Notes under the pieces: model-generated
The model's input: the letters and a program-made list of their open reading frames with translations, nothing else
The model's database searches: none
Told to the model about the DNA's origin: nothing
Source of the DNA: Nitrospinaceae bacterium
Lineage (GTDB): Bacteria > Nitrospinota > Nitrospinia > Nitrospinales > VA-1
Direction of reading: 5' to 3'
Assembly: GCA_021604505.1 (NCBI GenBank)
Contig: BQJC01000002.1
Coordinates: 496,001 to 560,000 of the forward strand
Length of the DNA stretch: 64,000 nt
Made by a program: the position numbers and the translations under genes
In this document: positions 16,399 through 63,843 of the stretch, piece by piece
How positions within the stretch are numbered: the stretch's first letter is position 1
Layout: the number at the start of each line of letters is the position of its first letter

Positions 16399-17535
16399 AT
16401 GTTTTTTTTAAGATTCGGTGTGTGGCTCCCGCTATTTGGTTTGCTTTCAGGGTGCGGTCCCAGCGCTGTGGCTCCGGACATCTTCGCTCTGCCAGTGACC
16501 TATAAAGTCGGGAAAAAGCCGGCGGCAGTGACCGCGCATGACATGAACAGCGATGGATATCACGATCTTCTGATCGCCAACTCAGGAGACGACACGTTAA
16601 GTTACCTTGAGGGACTGGGAGACGGCAAGTTTAAAGATCCGCAAACCATGAGCACCGGCCGCGAACCCTTCGCTCTGGATGTAGCGGATTTTAACGGTGA
16701 TGGCAGTCCCGACATCGCTCTCTGCAATTATGGCGATGGTGAGGTGGCGATTATTCTCGGGCAGAAAGACGGACTATTTAAACTCAAAGGCAAAGTGAAA
16801 GTCGGAAGACTGCCCATCGCCGTGGTTTCGGGGGACTTTAACAACGATGAGAAAGTTGATCTTGCAGTGACCCTCCGGTTTGACAAACTGATCATCCTGT
16901 TAGGCGTCGGGGACGGAACCTTCAAATTCGCCGAAGCCTACAAGGCTTCGGGAACACCAGCCAATCTGGTCGCCGGTGATTTCAATAAAGACAAGAATCT
17001 GGATATCGCTATCGCTTTCAATGCGGTGAAGGCCAATTTCATCCGGCTTTTTTACGGCAACGGCGACGGAACCTTTCAAAATCCCGAAAAAATTCGAGGC
17101 GGCCATCAGTCTTCATTCATTACCATGCACGATATGAACCGCGACGGAGAACTGGACCTGATCACCTCCAGCACCATGAAGGACAGCGTCACAATTTTTC
17201 TGGGGGACGGAAAGGGTTCTTTCCGGGCGGCGGGCGATTTTGCCGGCGAAAAAGGCCCCGAGCACCTTTTCCCCGGCGAGTTCACCGGCGATGCTGTTCC
17301 CGATCTCGTGGTGTGCAACCGGCGGGACAATTCCATTTCGATTCTGGAAGGAAAAGGCGATGGAACCTTCTTATTCCCGCATTTTAATTATCCCGTGGGC
17401 AGAAATCCCCGCGCCCTGACTGGAGCGGATTTTAATCAGGACGGTCTGACCGATCTTGCCGTCCTTTTGTACGACTCCCAGATTCTGGTGGTCCTGTTGC
17501 AGAAGATTGCCACCATCCAACCGTTAGAATCTTGA
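16399..17535 (+). CDS. FG-GAP/VCBS-repeat lipoprotein (beta-propeller)
   Basis: 378 residues with a lipoprotein signal and LSGC lipobox, then about seven repeats of ~47 residues, each with an aspartate-rich loop such as DFNGDGSPDIAL, DFNNDEKVDLAV or DFNQDGLTDLAV followed by a GDGTF turn. This is the FG-GAP/VCBS pattern that folds as an integrin-like seven-blade propeller and binds calcium. Lipid anchoring places it on a membrane surface. Possible roles are adhesion or assembly of surface complexes. The gene stands alone and converges on yacG with a four-base gap. Confidence 0.85.
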   Translation: MFFLRFGVWLPLFGLLSGCGPSAVAPDIFALPVTYKVGKKPAAVTAHDMNSDGYHDLLIANSGDDTLSYLEGLGDGKFKDPQTMSTGREPFALDVADFNGDGSPDIALCNYGDGEVAIILGQKDGLFKLKGKVKVGRLPIAVVSGDFNNDEKVDLAVTLRFDKLIILLGVGDGTFKFAEAYKASGTPANLVAGDFNKDKNLDIAIAFNAVKANFIRLFYGNGDGTFQNPEKIRGGHQSSFITMHDMNRDGELDLITSSTMKDSVTIFLGDGKGSFRAAGDFAGEKGPEHLFPGEFTGDAVPDLVVCNRRDNSISILEGKGDGTFLFPHFNYPVGRNPRALTGADFNQDGLTDLAVLLYDSQILVVLLQKIATIQPLES

Positions 17536-17539
17536 CCTT

Positions 17540-17764
17540 TCAATCGTTCTCGCCGCCAGCGGAGTTTTCAGGAAGGCGGGTGGAAGGATCGTGGATCACG
17601 TATTTTTCGTCCAGCCATTTACCAAGGTCGGCCCATTTGCAACGTTCCGAGCAAAAAGGCAAAAACGGGTTTTTTTTCGCCGCCGCGACCGGGTTTTTGC
17701 ATGTCGGGCATGGCATGAGTTTTGACGATTGATTGGCTTTATCGTTATTTTTTATCCCGCTCAT
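17540..17764 (-). CDS. yacG: YacG-like zinc-binding protein (DNA gyrase inhibitor family)
   Basis: 74 residues. The zinc-binding set CPTC then FCSERC and the following WADLGKWLDEKY segment are the YacG signature. In E. coli, YacG binds GyrB and inhibits DNA gyrase. The N-terminus is ~15 residues longer than the core. It converges on the FG-GAP gene. No clear ribosome site precedes ATG 17764, and a TATTAT box lies only about 15 bases upstream. Confidence 0.9.
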   Translation of the reverse strand: MSGIKNNDKANQSSKLMPCPTCKNPVAAAKKNPFLPFCSERCKWADLGKWLDEKYVIHDPSTRLPENSAGGEND

Positions 17765-17871: not shown

Positions 17872-19983
17872 TTGAAAAATACGATGATTATTGAAATTAA
17901 GCAACGTAATTATTACCAGGTGTTGGGGGTCAATCCGGATGCGTCGCAGAACGAAATCGACCACGCCTATAAAAGACTGATCAGCCGGTTCGATTCGGCG
18001 GGGTCGCGGCGATCGCCTAAGGTTCAGGCATCGCTTAAGGGAAAAATTGCGCTGCTGCAGGAAGCTTACGACACCCTTTCAAACCTGGAAAAACGCGATG
18101 AGCACGACCGTTTGATCGAGGAACAAGGAAAGAGCGCTTTGTCGCCGACGGCACTCACCGCTCCGGCATCTTTAAGGGATTGGGAAGTTTCAGCCGACAA
18201 TCGAAAGAACTCCGGCAATGTGTACCAGGATTATTTTGGTTTGTCGGAAAAACCCTTCGACCTGACTCCGGACCCCAAATACCTTTATTTAAGCCCCAAG
18301 CATAAAGAGGTGTTGGCTCATCTGGTCTATGGCATCCAGGAGAACAACGGTTTTCTTAAAATCGTTGGCGAAGTCGGAACCGGAAAGACCATGATTTGCA
18401 GAAGCTTCTTACGGGAATTGCACACCGACTTCAGTATCGCCTACATTTTTAATCCCGGAATCGACGAACTGGAGTTGTTGCAGACCATCAACGCCGAACT
18501 GGGACTGCCTTCTGAGAGCACCAGCAAGAAAAAACTTACAGACATCCTCAACCGTTTTTTGCTGGAGGAAAGGAAAAAAGGGCACCGGGTGGTGGTCATC
18601 ATCGATGAAGCCCAGGATCTGCTGCCCTCGGTTCTGGAACAACTCAGGCTTCTGTCGAATCTGGAAACCGAAACCGAAAAGCTGATTCAGATCGTGCTCA
18701 TCGGCCAACCGGAGTTGGAGAAAGTGCTGGCTCAGGAAGAACTTCGGCAGTTAAAGCAGCGTATCACGATTCAGTGGGAACTGCTTCCCCTGAATCTTGA
18801 AGAGACGCGCGGCTATATTCAGCATCGGTTAAACGTCGCTCTCGGCAAGGGAAAAGTGCAACTCACCCGTCCGGGGACCGATTTGATTTACAGATACTCC
18901 AAGGGCATCCCGCGGATGATCAACGTTCTGGCCGACCGGTCGCTGCTGATCGCGTACACCCAGAATACCAAGAAGATCAATTGTAAGATCATTCGCATGG
19001 CGGTTAAGGACATTGGCGGTCTCAAACCGGCGGCGGCTCCCATAGAAATATTTGGAAAGTTCGTGTTGCCGGTGGTTGCTTTGGCGGCCCTGGCATTTTT
19101 CATCATTCACGATTTTGCCCTGCCGGATTTAAAAACCAACCCAGCCAAGGGAAAAGACATTCCAAAAATCATTCAGGAAAATCCTATCGACCTGACCAAT
19201 CCCGGTCAGTTGCTTAAGGAGGATGAATTGGCAAAATTGCCGTCGATGGAGGCGTCTTCATCTTTGGAAAAACTGGATGTCATGCAAAAAATGGAGGTCG
19301 CTGCCCGACCGGAAAAAGCGTCTCACACGGGGCCCCTGGTTCTCACCCAGCCTGCAAAGCTGGTCACTTATCTTTCCAGCCTTTCCCTGGAAGAAAGCAA
19401 GCTGGAAGCGGCGAAGTGGATATTGGAAACCTGGGGTTTTGATCAATCGGGGGTTGAAATGGTGGATAACTGGGCTCTCGAAAACCTCGAGACGGAGTTC
19501 GAACTGTCGCAGTATGAATTGAACGGCAATTTCAAGCGCTTGACCAACCTCAATTACCCGGCCATTCTGGAGGTGGCGCTTCCCAATTCCCAGGGAACCA
19601 AATACCTGGCTTTGACCTCGGTGAAGGGCGAGCGCGGTGTTTTCGGTTCGGTCGATAAAATTGAAATGCCTTTAGAAACCATCAACCCGTTGTGGACCCG
19701 AAAAGCGATTATTATCTGGAAAGATTTTGAATCCCTGCCTGAAGCCGGTTTGGAAAATGGTTATGCGGGCAAGGAAGTGATCTGGTTGCAGAAAAACCTG
19801 CGTCTCCTGGGTTTCTTTATAGGCCGCGAAGCCGCGCGTTATGGAGGGCAAACGGAAAAAGCCGTGCGTAAATTTCAGCGCAAAAACAATATCAAAGACG
19901 ACGGCAAGTTTTCTACGGAAAGTAAAATGCTTCTATACAATCTGTTGGACATTTACAAAACTCCGAAGCTGATGGCGCCATGA
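17872..19983 (+). CDS. GspA/ExeA-like AAA ATPase with N-terminal J-like and C-terminal peptidoglycan-binding domains
   Basis: 703 residues. Residues ~13-80 resemble a DnaJ domain (YYQVLGVNPDASQNEIDHAYKRL) but the HPD tripeptide that stimulates DnaK is absent (RFDSAG at that place). Residues ~120-385 are an ExeA-type AAA+ ATPase with Walker A GEVGTGKT (166-173) and Walker B VVIIDEAQ. A membrane segment lies at ~396-414, then a periplasmic region with a degenerate C39-like segment and a C-terminal peptidoglycan-binding domain (~640-695, IWLQKNLRLLGFF). GspA-type proteins help insert the type II secretion secretin, or similar assemblies, through the cell wall. The TTG start has GGAAAA five bases upstream; ATG 17884 is an alternative. 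It overlaps the GspB-like gene by four bases. Confidence 0.85.
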   Translation: MKNTMIIEIKQRNYYQVLGVNPDASQNEIDHAYKRLISRFDSAGSRRSPKVQASLKGKIALLQEAYDTLSNLEKRDEHDRLIEEQGKSALSPTALTAPASLRDWEVSADNRKNSGNVYQDYFGLSEKPFDLTPDPKYLYLSPKHKEVLAHLVYGIQENNGFLKIVGEVGTGKTMICRSFLRELHTDFSIAYIFNPGIDELELLQTINAELGLPSESTSKKKLTDILNRFLLEERKKGHRVVVIIDEAQDLLPSVLEQLRLLSNLETETEKLIQIVLIGQPELEKVLAQEELRQLKQRITIQWELLPLNLEETRGYIQHRLNVALGKGKVQLTRPGTDLIYRYSKGIPRMINVLADRSLLIAYTQNTKKINCKIIRMAVKDIGGLKPAAAPIEIFGKFVLPVVALAALAFFIIHDFALPDLKTNPAKGKDIPKIIQENPIDLTNPGQLLKEDELAKLPSMEASSSLEKLDVMQKMEVAARPEKASHTGPLVLTQPAKLVTYLSSLSLEESKLEAAKWILETWGFDQSGVEMVDNWALENLETEFELSQYELNGNFKRLTNLNYPAILEVALPNSQGTKYLALTSVKGERGVFGSVDKIEMPLETINPLWTRKAIIIWKDFESLPEAGLENGYAGKEVIWLQKNLRLLGFFIGREAARYGGQTEKAVRKFQRKNNIKDDGKFSTESKMLLYNLLDIYKTPKLMAP

Positions 19984-20768
19984 GCACCATTCTCAACACG
20001 CTAAAGAAGCTGGAAGAAGAAAAAAGCGTCCTGGAAAAAAATATCGACCTCAAGGGATTGCTGTTGCAAGGCCAGGATTCTGCCTACCCGCAGGTGGAGC
20101 GGCAGGCGCCCAAAAAATGGGGAATTCTCGGGGGACTGATGGCAGGTGCGGTGTTGCTGGGAGTTGTGGTTTACTTTTTTTATTTATCAAAACCCGAGGC
20201 AACCCAACCGGAAAATTTTACTTTGCCCACTAAACCACAAGTGGCTCAGGAGAAGAAAAGACACTTGAAACCGGCGGCATCGAACCCTGGGATTCCGCTC
20301 GCCGGCATTCCGGAAACCGAGCCGGCGGCCATGGATGACCCCTGGAAGGATGAAGATTTTTTCGGTCCAGAGGACGCCCTGCCGCCAGAAGCCCTGCTTC
20401 CAATGGAGGAAATTCCCCGGACGGCAGCGGTGGAAGCTCCTGCCCTGGAAGGTTCCGAGGAAATCCGCGAGATCGAGAACCTGATTCAATCCGCGACCTC
20501 ATCCAGTGAGCTGGAAAAGCAAAATCTTGAGGAACCGGTTTCCAGATTGAGCGGCTTAAGACATGTGCCCGGAGTGAAACTCAAGGGAATTATTTTTTTC
20601 GGTTCTGGCAATCCCGCCAACCATGTTTTTGTCGCCACCGATGCGGAAAAAAACCGTAAACTGAAAGTGGGGGATACCGTTTTAAATGCCACCCTCGAAT
20701 CCATCGAAGCTAAGAAGGCCGTGTTTTCTTACGGCGGCCAATGGGTGGAAACCCTTATTGGCGACTGA
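19980..20768 (+). CDS. GspB/PulB-like general secretion accessory protein
   Basis: 262 residues. The N-terminus MSTILNTLKKLEEEK is the short cytoplasmic segment typical of GspB, followed by a membrane helix at ~47-68, a Pro/Glu-rich periplasmic stretch, and a C-terminal domain (residues ~195-260: GVKLKGIIFFGSG, LKVGDTVLNATLESIEAKKAVF) matching the GspB C-terminal fold. The start overlaps the GspA-like stop by four bases (ATGA), so the pair is translationally coupled, as known for GspA-GspB. No other type II secretion gene is present here, but a type IV pilus cluster lies at the right end. Confidence 0.85.
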   Translation: MSTILNTLKKLEEEKSVLEKNIDLKGLLLQGQDSAYPQVERQAPKKWGILGGLMAGAVLLGVVVYFFYLSKPEATQPENFTLPTKPQVAQEKKRHLKPAASNPGIPLAGIPETEPAAMDDPWKDEDFFGPEDALPPEALLPMEEIPRTAAVEAPALEGSEEIREIENLIQSATSSSELEKQNLEEPVSRLSGLRHVPGVKLKGIIFFGSGNPANHVFVATDAEKNRKLKVGDTVLNATLESIEAKKAVFSYGGQWVETLIGD

Positions 20769-59881: not shown

Positions 59882-60955
59882 ATGTTTCTAACAGAAAAAA
59901 CTCCATTGGTAGCAATCGATATTGGCACCCATTCCGTCAAGATGGCGCAAATGGCCGGGTCGCGAAACAAGTTCGAATTGCTCAATTTCTCCATGATGCC
60001 GCTGAAGGAGGATTGCATTGTCGACGGAGTGATCAAACAGCCCGACGAGGTTGTGGATACGCTGACAAAAATGATCAAGGCGGAAAATATAAACACCAAA
60101 TATGCTGTGGCTTCCATCGCTGGAGAAGCCGTCATCGTAAAAAAAATTCGCGTCCCCAGGATGTCTGCGGAAGAGCTTGCAGAAAATATTGAAAATGAAG
60201 CTGAGCAATACATCCCCTTTGACATTGACGACGTCAGTATTGATTTCCAATTGTTGAACGCGGGCACCCTTTCTGCCATGGAGGATCAAGACCAGGAAAC
60301 CATGGAGATTCTTTTAGTGGCCGTTCAGAAAGACTATATCGAAAGCCTGACAGACGTTCTATATGACGCAGGGTTGAAACCGGCCATTATTGACCTTGAT
60401 GTGTTTGCCATGGCAAATGCCTGTGAACTGGGGGTCAATTTGCACAATAAGGGAGTGATTGCCGTCATTGACCTGGGAGAATCGTTCACCCACCTTCATA
60501 TTATGCAGGATGGTCTCACTTCTTATACCCGGGATATCCCCTTGGGAGGCGGTCATTGCACCAAAAAACTCATGTCCAAATTCGACCTGGCCCAGAAAGA
60601 GACGGTGAAGCTTAAATTGGGGAAAATACCTGACGGCATAGAGAACGATGATGTGGTGCAAGTCATCGTTCAATCGCTCGAGAAAATTATCGACGAGGTG
60701 CAAAAATCGTTTCAGTTTTTCAACACCACATCCAACAGCGAGGTGGATCGGGTGTATTTAACCGGTGGCGGTGCTTTACTCAGCGGCGCGGACAGTTTGT
60801 TTGCCCATCATTTGAGTGTCCCCGTAGAAATATTGAACCCGATGAATGGAATCAAGGTCAATAAGAGAAAATTTGACCAGGCAACGGTCGATGCATTGGG
60901 TCCATTATCCACAGTGGCCCTCGGATTAGCGGCCAGAAGGTTTGATTACCAATGA
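59882..60955 (+). CDS. pilM: Type IV pilus assembly ATPase-like protein PilM
   Basis: 357 residues with the actin-like fold of PilM: VAIDIGTHSVKMAQM is the phosphate-1 loop, AVIDLGESFTHLHI the second phosphate region and YLTGGGALLSGADSL the adenosine loop. PilM binds the short cytoplasmic tail of PilN and organises the inner-membrane pilus alignment complex. ATG 59882 begins the cluster, and its stop overlaps pilN by four bases (ATGA). It is the first of the run pilM-N-O-P-Q. Confidence 0.95.
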   Translation: MFLTEKTPLVAIDIGTHSVKMAQMAGSRNKFELLNFSMMPLKEDCIVDGVIKQPDEVVDTLTKMIKAENINTKYAVASIAGEAVIVKKIRVPRMSAEELAENIENEAEQYIPFDIDDVSIDFQLLNAGTLSAMEDQDQETMEILLVAVQKDYIESLTDVLYDAGLKPAIIDLDVFAMANACELGVNLHNKGVIAVIDLGESFTHLHIMQDGLTSYTRDIPLGGGHCTKKLMSKFDLAQKETVKLKLGKIPDGIENDDVVQVIVQSLEKIIDEVQKSFQFFNTTSNSEVDRVYLTGGGALLSGADSLFAHHLSVPVEILNPMNGIKVNKRKFDQATVDALGPLSTVALGLAARRFDYQ

Positions 60956-61626
60956 TAAAAATAAATTTATTCGATTACCGGGAAGAATTAAAAAGAGCAT
61001 CGATTCAGAAGCAGGTTTTAAAATCCGCCTCCATCGTGGTCACGGCTCTGTTCATGATCCTTTTCAGCTGGCTCATAGAAAAAAGCCGAATCAGTACGGT
61101 CGACATGGAAGTCAGGGACCTGGAACAGCAGGTGAATGCTCTCCAGGGGACAGTGAATATGGTCAAGGGCATGCAGGCCAAGCAAAAAAGAGTTGGCAAA
61201 ATTCTTGTGGGAATAGAAAGCCTGCGAGCAGAACAAATGCCGGCAACGCAGATTCTTTTTGATGTCAACAAGGGGGTTCCTGAGGCAATCTGGCTGACGC
61301 ACATTGTGCAACAGACGGAAGCGGAGCTTGTGGCCAAGAAGGTGCCAACCATTTTATTTAAAATTCCCTCACCTGCAGGGCAGCAGAAAAAGAATAAAAA
61401 CCGACGCAACCAGAAACCAAAAGCCGCTAAGGAATTTATTCAAATCATTGGCCATGCGTTGGAAGATCAGGCAGTTGCCCGTTTTGTCGAAAAGCTGGAA
61501 GAGGTGCCCTACTTTAAAACGGTGTTTCTGTTTAAAACTGAGCAGATCAAAATCGGTCAAACGCCAGTGCGTAAATTTACTATTTACTGCTATTTGCCCG
61601 AAAATCCCGATAAAACGGTGACCTGA
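60952..61626 (+). CDS. pilN: Type IV pilus assembly protein PilN
   Basis: 224 residues. The N-terminal INLFDYRE is the tail that binds PilM, followed by a single membrane helix (~25-45) and a periplasmic coiled-coil plus globular part. PilN pairs with PilO to form the inner-membrane platform. Its start overlaps pilM by four bases and its stop precedes pilO by five bases, so the genes are coupled. Confidence 0.9.
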   Translation: MIKINLFDYREELKRASIQKQVLKSASIVVTALFMILFSWLIEKSRISTVDMEVRDLEQQVNALQGTVNMVKGMQAKQKRVGKILVGIESLRAEQMPATQILFDVNKGVPEAIWLTHIVQQTEAELVAKKVPTILFKIPSPAGQQKKNKNRRNQKPKAAKEFIQIIGHALEDQAVARFVEKLEEVPYFKTVFLFKTEQIKIGQTPVRKFTIYCYLPENPDKTVT

Positions 61627-61631
61627 AAATT

Positions 61632-62309
61632 ATGATTGAAAAATTACTGGAACATTTACCTTATGATTTGTTGGAGAGAGTCAAGTTTTCGCACCTCCTT
61701 TTGGGGAGCGCCGGTGTCGGCGTATTGCTGTTTTCAGCGTATTTTTTCACCCTTTATCAGACCACCCACGAAGAGTTAGTCCGGTTGCAGAAAAAAAGGA
61801 CTCAAACAGCGCAAAAACTCGAAAACTATAAAAAACTGGTCGCCCAAAAAGACATCATTGCAAAAAATCTGGCCCGTTCAGCCGGAACGCTTGAGGCCAT
61901 GAAACAACAGTTGCCGCGCGAAGATGAAATGCCGGGCCTGTTAAAAGAGGTCGCCAGTTTTGGAGGGGACCGGGGCGCATTTGAAGTCACGCAGTTTCAA
62001 CTTCAGGAAGGCGGGGTTGAAGATTTTTATAAAAAAATCCCCGTTGCCCTGCAAATGCGCGGTTCGTTTTGGGACACCCTGGACTTTATGGATAAAATGC
62101 AAAACCGCCTGCAACTGGTTAATTTTTCCGATTTGCAAATGACGGTTGAAAACTCCCCTTCGGGAAACAGTAATGCGGAGTCTTCAGGTCAAAACCGTTC
62201 CGGCGGTAATCTGCGGACCCATTTGGTTGCCAACACCTATGCGTATATCGATGGGGCGGAAAACAAAGCGGGACAGGGTTCGGCTAAATCAGCCAAAAAA
62301 ACCAAGTAA
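61632..62309 (+). CDS. pilO: Type IV pilus assembly protein PilO
   Basis: 225 residues with an N-terminal membrane helix (~18-40), a coiled coil (~45-95) and a periplasmic domain with PVALQMRGSFWDTLDFMDKMQ, typical of PilO. It forms the PilN-PilO heterodimer. The C-terminal stretch is rich in Ser, Gly and Lys. It lies 19 bases before the PilP-like gene. Confidence 0.9.
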   Translation: MIEKLLEHLPYDLLERVKFSHLLLGSAGVGVLLFSAYFFTLYQTTHEELVRLQKKRTQTAQKLENYKKLVAQKDIIAKNLARSAGTLEAMKQQLPREDEMPGLLKEVASFGGDRGAFEVTQFQLQEGGVEDFYKKIPVALQMRGSFWDTLDFMDKMQNRLQLVNFSDLQMTVENSPSGNSNAESSGQNRSGGNLRTHLVANTYAYIDGAENKAGQGSAKSAKKTK

Positions 62310-62328
62310 AAATGCAGGAGGTTTCTGA

Positions 62329-63843
62329 ATGAGGTTGGGTTTCATAGGCAAATTCGCAAACGTATTTTTAAATCCGGTGCTGGTGGCTTTAATATCTGGT
62401 GTCATCGCATTTGGCGTCATGTCACCGGTTTTTGCTTTCGCCTCTTCTGACAAAGGAAAAAGCTTCCAGAAGGATCGAAGGAAGTCCCTGGACCGGGTGA
62501 TTCATTTGGCCGGCATCGACCAAGCAGCCAATAAAATAGATTCCATGTTATTTGGGCAACGATTCGACCAGTCAGGATTGCCTTCGGAACAATTTATTTT
62601 ATTACAGAACGTAATGAGCCGGGTTTTTGATGCAGAGGCCTGGTTAAAATCCATCCGCAATCGCATGTTGGCCAACTATAAACCCCATTATACCGGCGCC
62701 GTTTTGAAATGGTATGAATCCCCCCTGGGGAAAAAAGTGGTCCGTGCAGAAATTCAGGATTTAGCTCAGGGAATGACGAAAGAAAAAGAGGCGTTTATAG
62801 GGCAGCTCAAAATTTTTCCTCCTCAAGAAGACAGGTTGGAAATGGCAGAGCGGTTTGAAGAGGCGATTGGAATCACCAATTACACCATGGACACGGTCCT
62901 GATGTTTGTCAAGGTATTGATTCCCTTTAACGGTCAGTTTCAAGGAAAATCCCCACGAACGATCAGCAACAATCTCCGCGAAGATCTGCAAGATTCGATG
63001 AGGGAGCAAATCCTGCAATCGATCTTATATAAATTCCGCCATTTGTCGGATAAAGAATTTTCGAAATACGTCAACTTTGTAACCTCTCAGGCTGGAAGGT
63101 GGTTTTTCAGATCCTATTTTCGTGGGTCCAGAGATGCAATGGGGCAAACGACCCTTAAACTGGAAAAATTACTCGACAGAATTGTTCGGGAGATGGAATC
63201 AGGAGATGGAGAATCTGAACTGTTAAAGGAAATTGCACCTCCCGGCCAGCGATTTATTTTTGTGAGGAAGCGCGATCCGTTTGTTCCCCTGGTGGATCCC
63301 AAAGAGGGTTTTATCCAGGTGGCTGAAAAGGACGATACGGAAATTGAATTCACGAAATTTTCTGATGAGCTGAAAAGGCTCCCACCGATTCCATTGGAAG
63401 TTTATAGAACCATCCAAAAGACGGACCCCAAGCTTTTCACACAGTTGGAATATTATGGAGGGTTCTTCAAGCAGGAAACAAAATTAGCTTCCTTACCCGA
63501 GGGGGAATATGTTGAGGCGGTCCATAAATATAAAGATCTCCTGGAAAAGGCCAACGATGCGAAACCCAGCCTTATTTTGACGCCTATCCAGACGAACTAT
63601 GAATCTCTAAAGCTGGTTGGCGTTATATGGAAAAACAAAGCCATCACCGCGTTGATCGAAACGGGAGACAATAAAGGGCATTCTGTTAACGAAGGTGACT
63701 TGTTGGGGCCAAACTTTGGAGTGGTTGAGTCGATCGATCAAAACAAAATGTCCATTTTGGAGCGATCCCGGGATTACCAAGGGAATATATTGTCGCAAAA
63801 AAAGGAACTCGAATTTATTCAAGAATCCCCGGAGGAGGGATGA
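62329..63843 (+). CDS. PilP-like pilus protein fused to DUF2059-like domains
   Basis: 504 residues. After a signal-like N-terminus (residues ~1-42), residues ~70-290 contain two DUF2059-like units: YKPHYTGAVLKWYESPLGKKV and HLSDKEFSKYVNFVTSQAGR. The C-terminal ~190 residues resemble PilP: RDPFVPL (~315), a proline-rich link, then LVGVIWKNKAITALIETGDNK and VNEGDLLGPNFGVVESID. Ordinary PilP is a ~180-residue lipoprotein with no DUF2059 part and a lipobox; I see no lipobox here. Its place between pilO and a secretin-like gene supports a PilP role linking PilN-PilO to PilQ. ATG 62329 follows AGGAGG. Confidence 0.8.
   Translation: MRLGFIGKFANVFLNPVLVALISGVIAFGVMSPVFAFASSDKGKSFQKDRRKSLDRVIHLAGIDQAANKIDSMLFGQRFDQSGLPSEQFILLQNVMSRVFDAEAWLKSIRNRMLANYKPHYTGAVLKWYESPLGKKVVRAEIQDLAQGMTKEKEAFIGQLKIFPPQEDRLEMAERFEEAIGITNYTMDTVLMFVKVLIPFNGQFQGKSPRTISNNLREDLQDSMREQILQSILYKFRHLSDKEFSKYVNFVTSQAGRWFFRSYFRGSRDAMGQTTLKLEKLLDRIVREMESGDGESELLKEIAPPGQRFIFVRKRDPFVPLVDPKEGFIQVAEKDDTEIEFTKFSDELKRLPPIPLEVYRTIQKTDPKLFTQLEYYGGFFKQETKLASLPEGEYVEAVHKYKDLLEKANDAKPSLILTPIQTNYESLKLVGVIWKNKAITALIETGDNKGHSVNEGDLLGPNFGVVESIDQNKMSILERSRDYQGNILSQKKELEFIQESPEEG

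Follow-up and report, generated by a model that had tools for sequence, protein, structure and literature searches.

A predicted GspA-type ATPase with an HPD-less J-like domain is fixed in one lineage of Nitrospinota

A gene of a Nitrospinaceae bacterium appears to encode a GspA variant that carries a type IV J-like domain at its N-terminus, i.e., one that keeps the J fold without the HPD motif, and, as judged from the genomes compared, this variant (here called J-GspA) is fixed in a single lineage. The gene lies in a stretch of 64,000 nucleotides (contig BQJC01000002.1, positions 496,001 to 560,000), here called the window, and it overlaps a downstream GspB-like gene (Table 1). Our preferred reading, to which we give a probability of about 0.5, is that the two products would form a GspA-GspB complex for the assembly of a secretin, more likely PilQ, and that the J-fold domain would act as a cytosolic docking module that does not activate DnaK.

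Table 1. Location of the J-GspA gene, its predicted domains and the related genes within the window
Feature	Coordinates	Strand	Details
J-GspA gene	17872..19983	+	703 aa from TTG 17872; probable start ATG 17884, 699 aa
J-like domain	17908..18108	+	Residues 13-79; PF00226 above cut-off, AF2, Foldseek
DSA at the HPD position	17992..18000	+	D41-S42-A43; sequence and alignments
Linker	18109..18219	+	Residues 80-116; model confidence low
GspA/ExeA-type AAA ATPase	18220..19023	+	Residues 117-384; 48% identity to Aeromonas ExeA
Walker A, GEVGTGKT	18367..18390	+	Sequence
Walker B, VVIIDE	18589..18609	+	Sequence; D245 and E246 invariant in one homologue comparison
Single hydrophobic transmembrane segment	19060..19110	+	Residues 397-413; sequence inspection
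Periplasmic GspA_C39-like region	19426..19719	+	Residues 519-616; weak, PF21327 E 0.018, below cut-off
PG_binding_1 peptidoglycan-binding domain	19768..19917	+	Residues 633-682
GspB-like gene	19980..20768	+	262 aa; 4-bp overlap with J-GspA
C-terminal GspB-like periplasmic domain	20562..20765	+	Weak PF16537 match; best match of PDB profile search 4wfw
pilM-pilN-pilO-pilP, proposed client machine	59882..63843	+	pilQ next, beyond the window (contig C2:560546-561796)

The original prediction of a GspA architecture held. Pfam recovered an AAA ATPase (AAA_22, PF13401, residues 157-286, E 1.8e-28) and a peptidoglycan-binding end (PF01471, E 1.2e-11, 45 bits against a cut-off of 23), and inspection of the sequence a transmembrane segment, modeled by AlphaFold2 as a helix (390-412). 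The Walker A motif was invariant in one comparison of homologues and varies slightly among distant relatives. The alignment to Aeromonas ExeA pairs its first residue with residue 117 of J-GspA and the periplasmic part follows in matching order (the GspA_C39-like region aligns with the C-terminal part of ExeA at E 5e-4), so that the 116 extra residues, which carry the J-like domain, appear to have been added purely at the N-terminus of a GspA that is complete in other respects. Translation probably starts at the ATG (M5) rather than at the TTG, since in two orthologues (L022 and L024) the frame does not open until the residues immediately ahead of the equivalent of M5. The AlphaFold model of the full-length protein was poor (mean pLDDT 45) and the packing of the J part against the ATPase could not be read from it. 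Two other identities were discarded, an XrtA/PEP-CTERM ATPase (TIGR03015, 284.6 bits, below the curated cut-off of 324.5) and a chance match or frame artifact, since dozens of genomes have the fusion unbroken by any stop between its parts.

The J-like features that had been noticed at the N-terminus correspond to a J fold by profile and by structural model. Against a cut-off of 27.8 bits, PF00226 scored 38.1 on the full protein (residues 13-79) and 42.0 on its N-terminal piece alone, and it was also matched by 16 of 16 diverse homologues at E≤0.1 (best 1e-12). When residues 1-117 were modeled with AlphaFold, the J segment had pLDDT values of 71-90 and the helix order of J domains, including the helical hairpin (helices 26-44 and 49-70). 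Practically every one of the 50 best PDB matches of this model in Foldseek was a J domain or a protein that contains one (top match 2dn9, rmsd 2.0 Å), and a profile built from 16 relatives of J-GspA matched solved J domains at E 3e-20. The HPD motif, by contrast, is absent. It was found in none of the 55 readable copies of J-GspA, where the triplet reads DSS (24), DSA (7, the window's version), DHP (7), DKP (3) or something else (14), and in all ten other J-domain loci found in the same genome. Position 33 in the E. coli DnaJ numbering, the His of HPD, is Asp in 48 of the 55 copies. J proteins without HPD are classed as type IV, and J-GspA falls within the definition of the class, a recognizable J domain in which HPD has been replaced nonconservatively (PMC13254874).

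Of the 64 genomes of the order, 57 carry the fusion, as do the two genomes of a sister family (f6). Searches of the remaining families in the class (f5, f7, f8 and f9) did not recover it; where these have an ExeA, it lacks the J part. Nothing J-like preceded the ATPase in the ca. 30 ExeA examples inspected from other genomes, sister families included, so the N-terminus is as unusual as predicted. Nor was there any J-ExeA fusion among the matches listed from ca. 770 genomes of other phyla, in which the best 4-5 candidates per genome were scored in two surveys; a similar fusion would outscore the ATPase-only matches listed, and a much diverged one could be missed. In those matches listed from other phyla whose start lies well within the J part, the frame is interrupted by stops. 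Among the ExeA matches listed from plasmid records, all begin at a query residue of at least 96 and none extends into the J part. One record in PLSDB, an Aeromonas caviae “plasmid” (NZ_AP026896.1), carries exeA and exeB, and its size (4.94 Mb) suggests a mislabeled chromosome. We found no paper on a DnaJ-GspA fusion either. Taken as a whole, the comparison indicates that the fusion is fixed in one clade, and it was not encountered as a common architecture elsewhere. Of the two outcomes named beforehand as refuting the original prediction, a model with no J fold and a common known architecture, neither was thus observed in the model and the genomes covered.

As predicted, the gene downstream is coupled to J-GspA, and its product is GspB-like in the C-terminal part. 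It directly follows J-GspA in most genomes, often with the identical 4-bp overlap, and its products start with MSTIL.TLKKLE and have a putative N-terminal transmembrane segment (hydrophobic residues 48-69 in the window's protein). PF16537, the T2SSB profile, matches 13 of 17 members of the family at E≤0.1 (best 4.8e-5), and the family profile finds a GspB structure (4wfw, E 0.024) as its best match in PDB. Direct comparison with Aeromonas ExeB by BLAST and hhalign gave nothing significant, and the window's protein alone scores 15 bits, under the Pfam cut-off of 28.4, for which reason “GspB-like” is the appropriate name for this predicted product. In one genus (g16), no GspB-like gene was found beside J-GspA; there, the neighbors of J-GspA are those seen in the window, in inverted arrangement (L061, L062, L064, L066 and L067). 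Just upstream of J-GspA in the window (16399-17535) there is a putative lipoprotein made of FG-GAP repeats, conserved near J-GspA in many relatives and, in genus g16, inverted and placed on the other side. A small divergent frame on the minus strand (17540-17764) has a CxxC...CSERC zinc-ribbon pattern, and its product presumably resembles YacG.

Which secretin would be served by this pair of proteins has to be judged from co-occurrence and gene location. The genome encodes three. No T2SS genes adjoin J-GspA, as had been noted, and a T2SS with GspD is present elsewhere (contig C1, near 1.06 Mb), while the pilus cluster seen near the right end of the window is pilM-pilN-pilO-pilP, which together with pilQ lies ca. 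42-47 kb downstream of J-GspA. The third secretin (L082, G000:C3:498405-500008) adjoins its own ExeA paralogue, the second of the genome, which begins at the ATPase and has no J domain. Clusters similar to this third one, possibly MSHA-like, occur in many relatives together with a PilM-like protein of ca. 590 aa, which blurs PilM as a second marker of the pilus. In one relative (L097, G025:C31:27591-28763), a frame of 418 aa runs from PilM (family model 5-279) directly into the C-terminal secretin part of PilQ, as if pilNOP had been deleted, by misassembly or in reality.

Within the order, the presence of J-GspA follows that of PilQ, found in 45 and missing in 12 of the 57 genomes with J-GspA, against 1 and 6 of the seven without it (Fisher p=0.0014); this test, like all those of co-occurrence given here, is weakened by gaps in the MAGs and by shared ancestry. 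The same comparison for GspD (38 and 19 against 3 and 4) was not significant (p=0.24), nor was the head-to-head contrast between PilQ and GspD in the genomes with exactly one of the two (p=0.13). Thirteen genomes with J-GspA have PilQ and no GspD that we could find (three of them 94-98% complete), and six have GspD with no PilQ detected, all of them 57-87% complete. Single genomes depart from the pattern: one (95% complete) has J-GspA with neither secretin detected, and another (94% complete) has PilQ and GspD with no J-GspA. Location points in the same direction as co-occurrence. J-GspA and pilQ are on the same strand in all 12 genomes with both genes on one contig, and 27-92 kb apart in 11 of them, against 0.2-1.9 Mb between J-GspA and gspD in three genomes that consist of a single contig. 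Sister family f7 has a J-less ExeA located ca. 4 kb from gspD, which suggests that in the J-bearing clade ExeA has moved away from the T2SS locus. The pilus link of the original prediction thus draws moderate support from co-occurrence and linkage, the direct contrast being weak; PilQ is favored over GspD as the client, not proven, given the p value of 0.13.

The alternative that fares best is that of a conventional GspAB for the T2SS, which would assemble GspD from a separate locus, the J-like part being a lineage ornament or adaptor. We regard it as rather unlikely. ExeA is the closest characterized relative of the ATPase, the same genome encodes a T2SS with GspD, two thirds or so of the J-GspA genomes (38 of 57) have GspD, and in Aeromonas exeAB forms an operon of its own, distinct from the main exe one (work cited in PMC4098917). 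However, 19 of the genomes with J-GspA yielded no GspD, among them G029 (98% complete, 30 contigs) and G019 (97%), and two genomes (G022, 94% complete, and G051) have GspD and yet neither J-GspA nor PilQ.

Under our preferred reading of a PilQ-directed complex with a docking domain, the two genes would give rise to an inner-membrane GspA-GspB complex that places the secretin ring of the outer membrane through the peptidoglycan, the client being more likely the PilQ of type IV pili than the GspD of the T2SS. On the model of ExeAB, GspA would grip the peptidoglycan with its periplasmic end and GspB would bridge to the secretin, with the cytosolic AAA ATPase driving or gating the assembly. The J-fold domain would be a cytosolic dock that brings in a partner, e.g., a motor or platform protein of the pilus, another J protein or a neighboring ATPase subunit. 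The sequences and the J-segment model show the domain anatomy, the loss of HPD, its conservation and fixation across the clade, and the pairing with the GspB-like gene; we infer the secretin-assembly role from homology, PilQ as the client from co-occurrence and linkage, and the docking role from a fold that is kept with a changed DnaK interface. ExeA binds peptidoglycan, multimerizes with ExeB and requires its cytosolic ATPase, and ExeB contacts the N0/N1 domains of the secretin (PMC4098917). In Pseudomonas, an ExeA-like ATPase beside pilMNOPQ supports normal pilus number and twitching, but PilQ multimers were unchanged in the mutant without it (PMC6321873), which counts against our reading, as does the genus (g16) in which no GspB-like gene adjoins J-GspA. 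A chaperone-derived contact at the base of the pilus is plausible by analogy, since a DnaK1-DnaJ3 system interacts with the pilus motors of cyanobacteria (PMC9239167).

With regard to the J-like domain itself, the prediction that it cannot stimulate DnaK in the normal way is supported as an inference. Substitutions in HPD have been reported to abolish Hsp70 stimulation (PMC13254874), and at residue 22 of helix II, where canonical members have a basic residue, 45 of the 55 copies have D, E or N. Another possibility would be a regulator similar to Pam16, in which the domain forms a pair with one of the canonical J proteins, restraining or positioning DnaK where the pilus or secretin has its base. 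Pam16 also has Asp in place of the His of HPD (DKE/DKS, PMC13254874), like most J-GspA copies, and the cyanobacterial chaperone system mentioned above could be invoked in its favor. Nevertheless, the 60 PDB sequences that score best against the J-like profile do not include Pam16, so that having Asp in common can be no more than convergence, and no canonical J gene adjoins J-GspA among the J loci found in the genome; we consider such a regulator improbable. For the same reason of the profile search, the domain was rejected as an orthologue of Pam16.

Still less credible is a domain that recruits or stimulates Hsp70 without HPD and supplies DnaK with secretin monomers or an assembly factor. It is true that Hsc70 is stimulated by a J analogue that was designed de novo and has no HPD (discussed in PMC13254874), and that K62 and R63 are retained in 51 and 54 of 56 copies, respectively. 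But in natural J proteins even the conservative changes H to Q and D to N abolish stimulation (PMC13254874), and the basic character of residue 22 is mostly lost. Finally, a functionless J domain decaying after an accidental fusion would account for the missing catalytic motif and for the J part evolving faster than the rest (its median dN/dS is 0.085, that of the ATPase 0.029 and that of the periplasmic part 0.048), but a value of ca. 0.09 indicates purifying selection, the J part is retained in the full-length copies of the clade, Asp recurs at position 33 and the core residues are nearly invariant (Y7 and L10 in 55/55, A16 in 54/55, A53 and L57 in 56/56, Y/F54 almost without exception), which makes this reading hardly tenable. 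With the fold kept and the Hsp70 surface rewritten, a changed function seems a better fit than decay.

Whether J domains without HPD are accidents or the product of selection has been called enigmatic (PMC13254874). J-GspA makes this question testable, since HPD is consistently lost across more than 50 related genomes, purifying selection appears to maintain the fold and the outline of the host machine is known. It may be, and we propose it tentatively, that throughout the lineage a J domain has become a fixed cytosolic adaptor of the motor that assembles the type IV pilus secretin across the peptidoglycan, independent of Hsp70 (or restraining it, in the manner of Pam16), and that selection, not accident, removed HPD. 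If true, such an adaptor would be a clade-wide case of selected HPD loss. The Nitrospinota are abundant marine nitrite oxidizers, and the fusion suggests that their pilus or secretin assembly takes a cytosolic input missing from the Aeromonas and Vibrio models.

Among known systems, the closest is GspA/ExeA with GspB/ExeB of Aeromonas and Vibrio, which shares the AAA ATPase (48% identical), the predicted single transmembrane segment, a weakly similar periplasmic region with a peptidoglycan-binding domain and an overlapping GspB-type gene. However, ExeA begins at the ATPase whereas J-GspA has the J-like domain and a linker ahead of it, the GspB-like gene is only remotely similar and the J-GspA locus is not tied to T2SS genes. 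The ATPase of XrtA/PEP-CTERM systems belongs to the same superfamily, but J-GspA has a peptidoglycan-binding end and a GspB-like partner. The type IV J proteins Pam16 and DNAJB13 also retain the J fold with HPD replaced and form part of a larger machine, and Pam16, which binds a canonical J protein (PMC13254874), illustrates one use of such a domain. In J-GspA, in contrast, the domain is fused to a bacterial envelope ATPase and has no specific sequence kinship with Pam16. Finally, PA5037/PA14_66580 is encoded directly upstream of pilMNOP and has no J domain described (PMC6321873), while J-GspA is located 42-47 kb from pilMNOPQ; the resemblance to this protein and to MshM lies in an ExeA-type ATPase that is proposed to act on a pilus machine.
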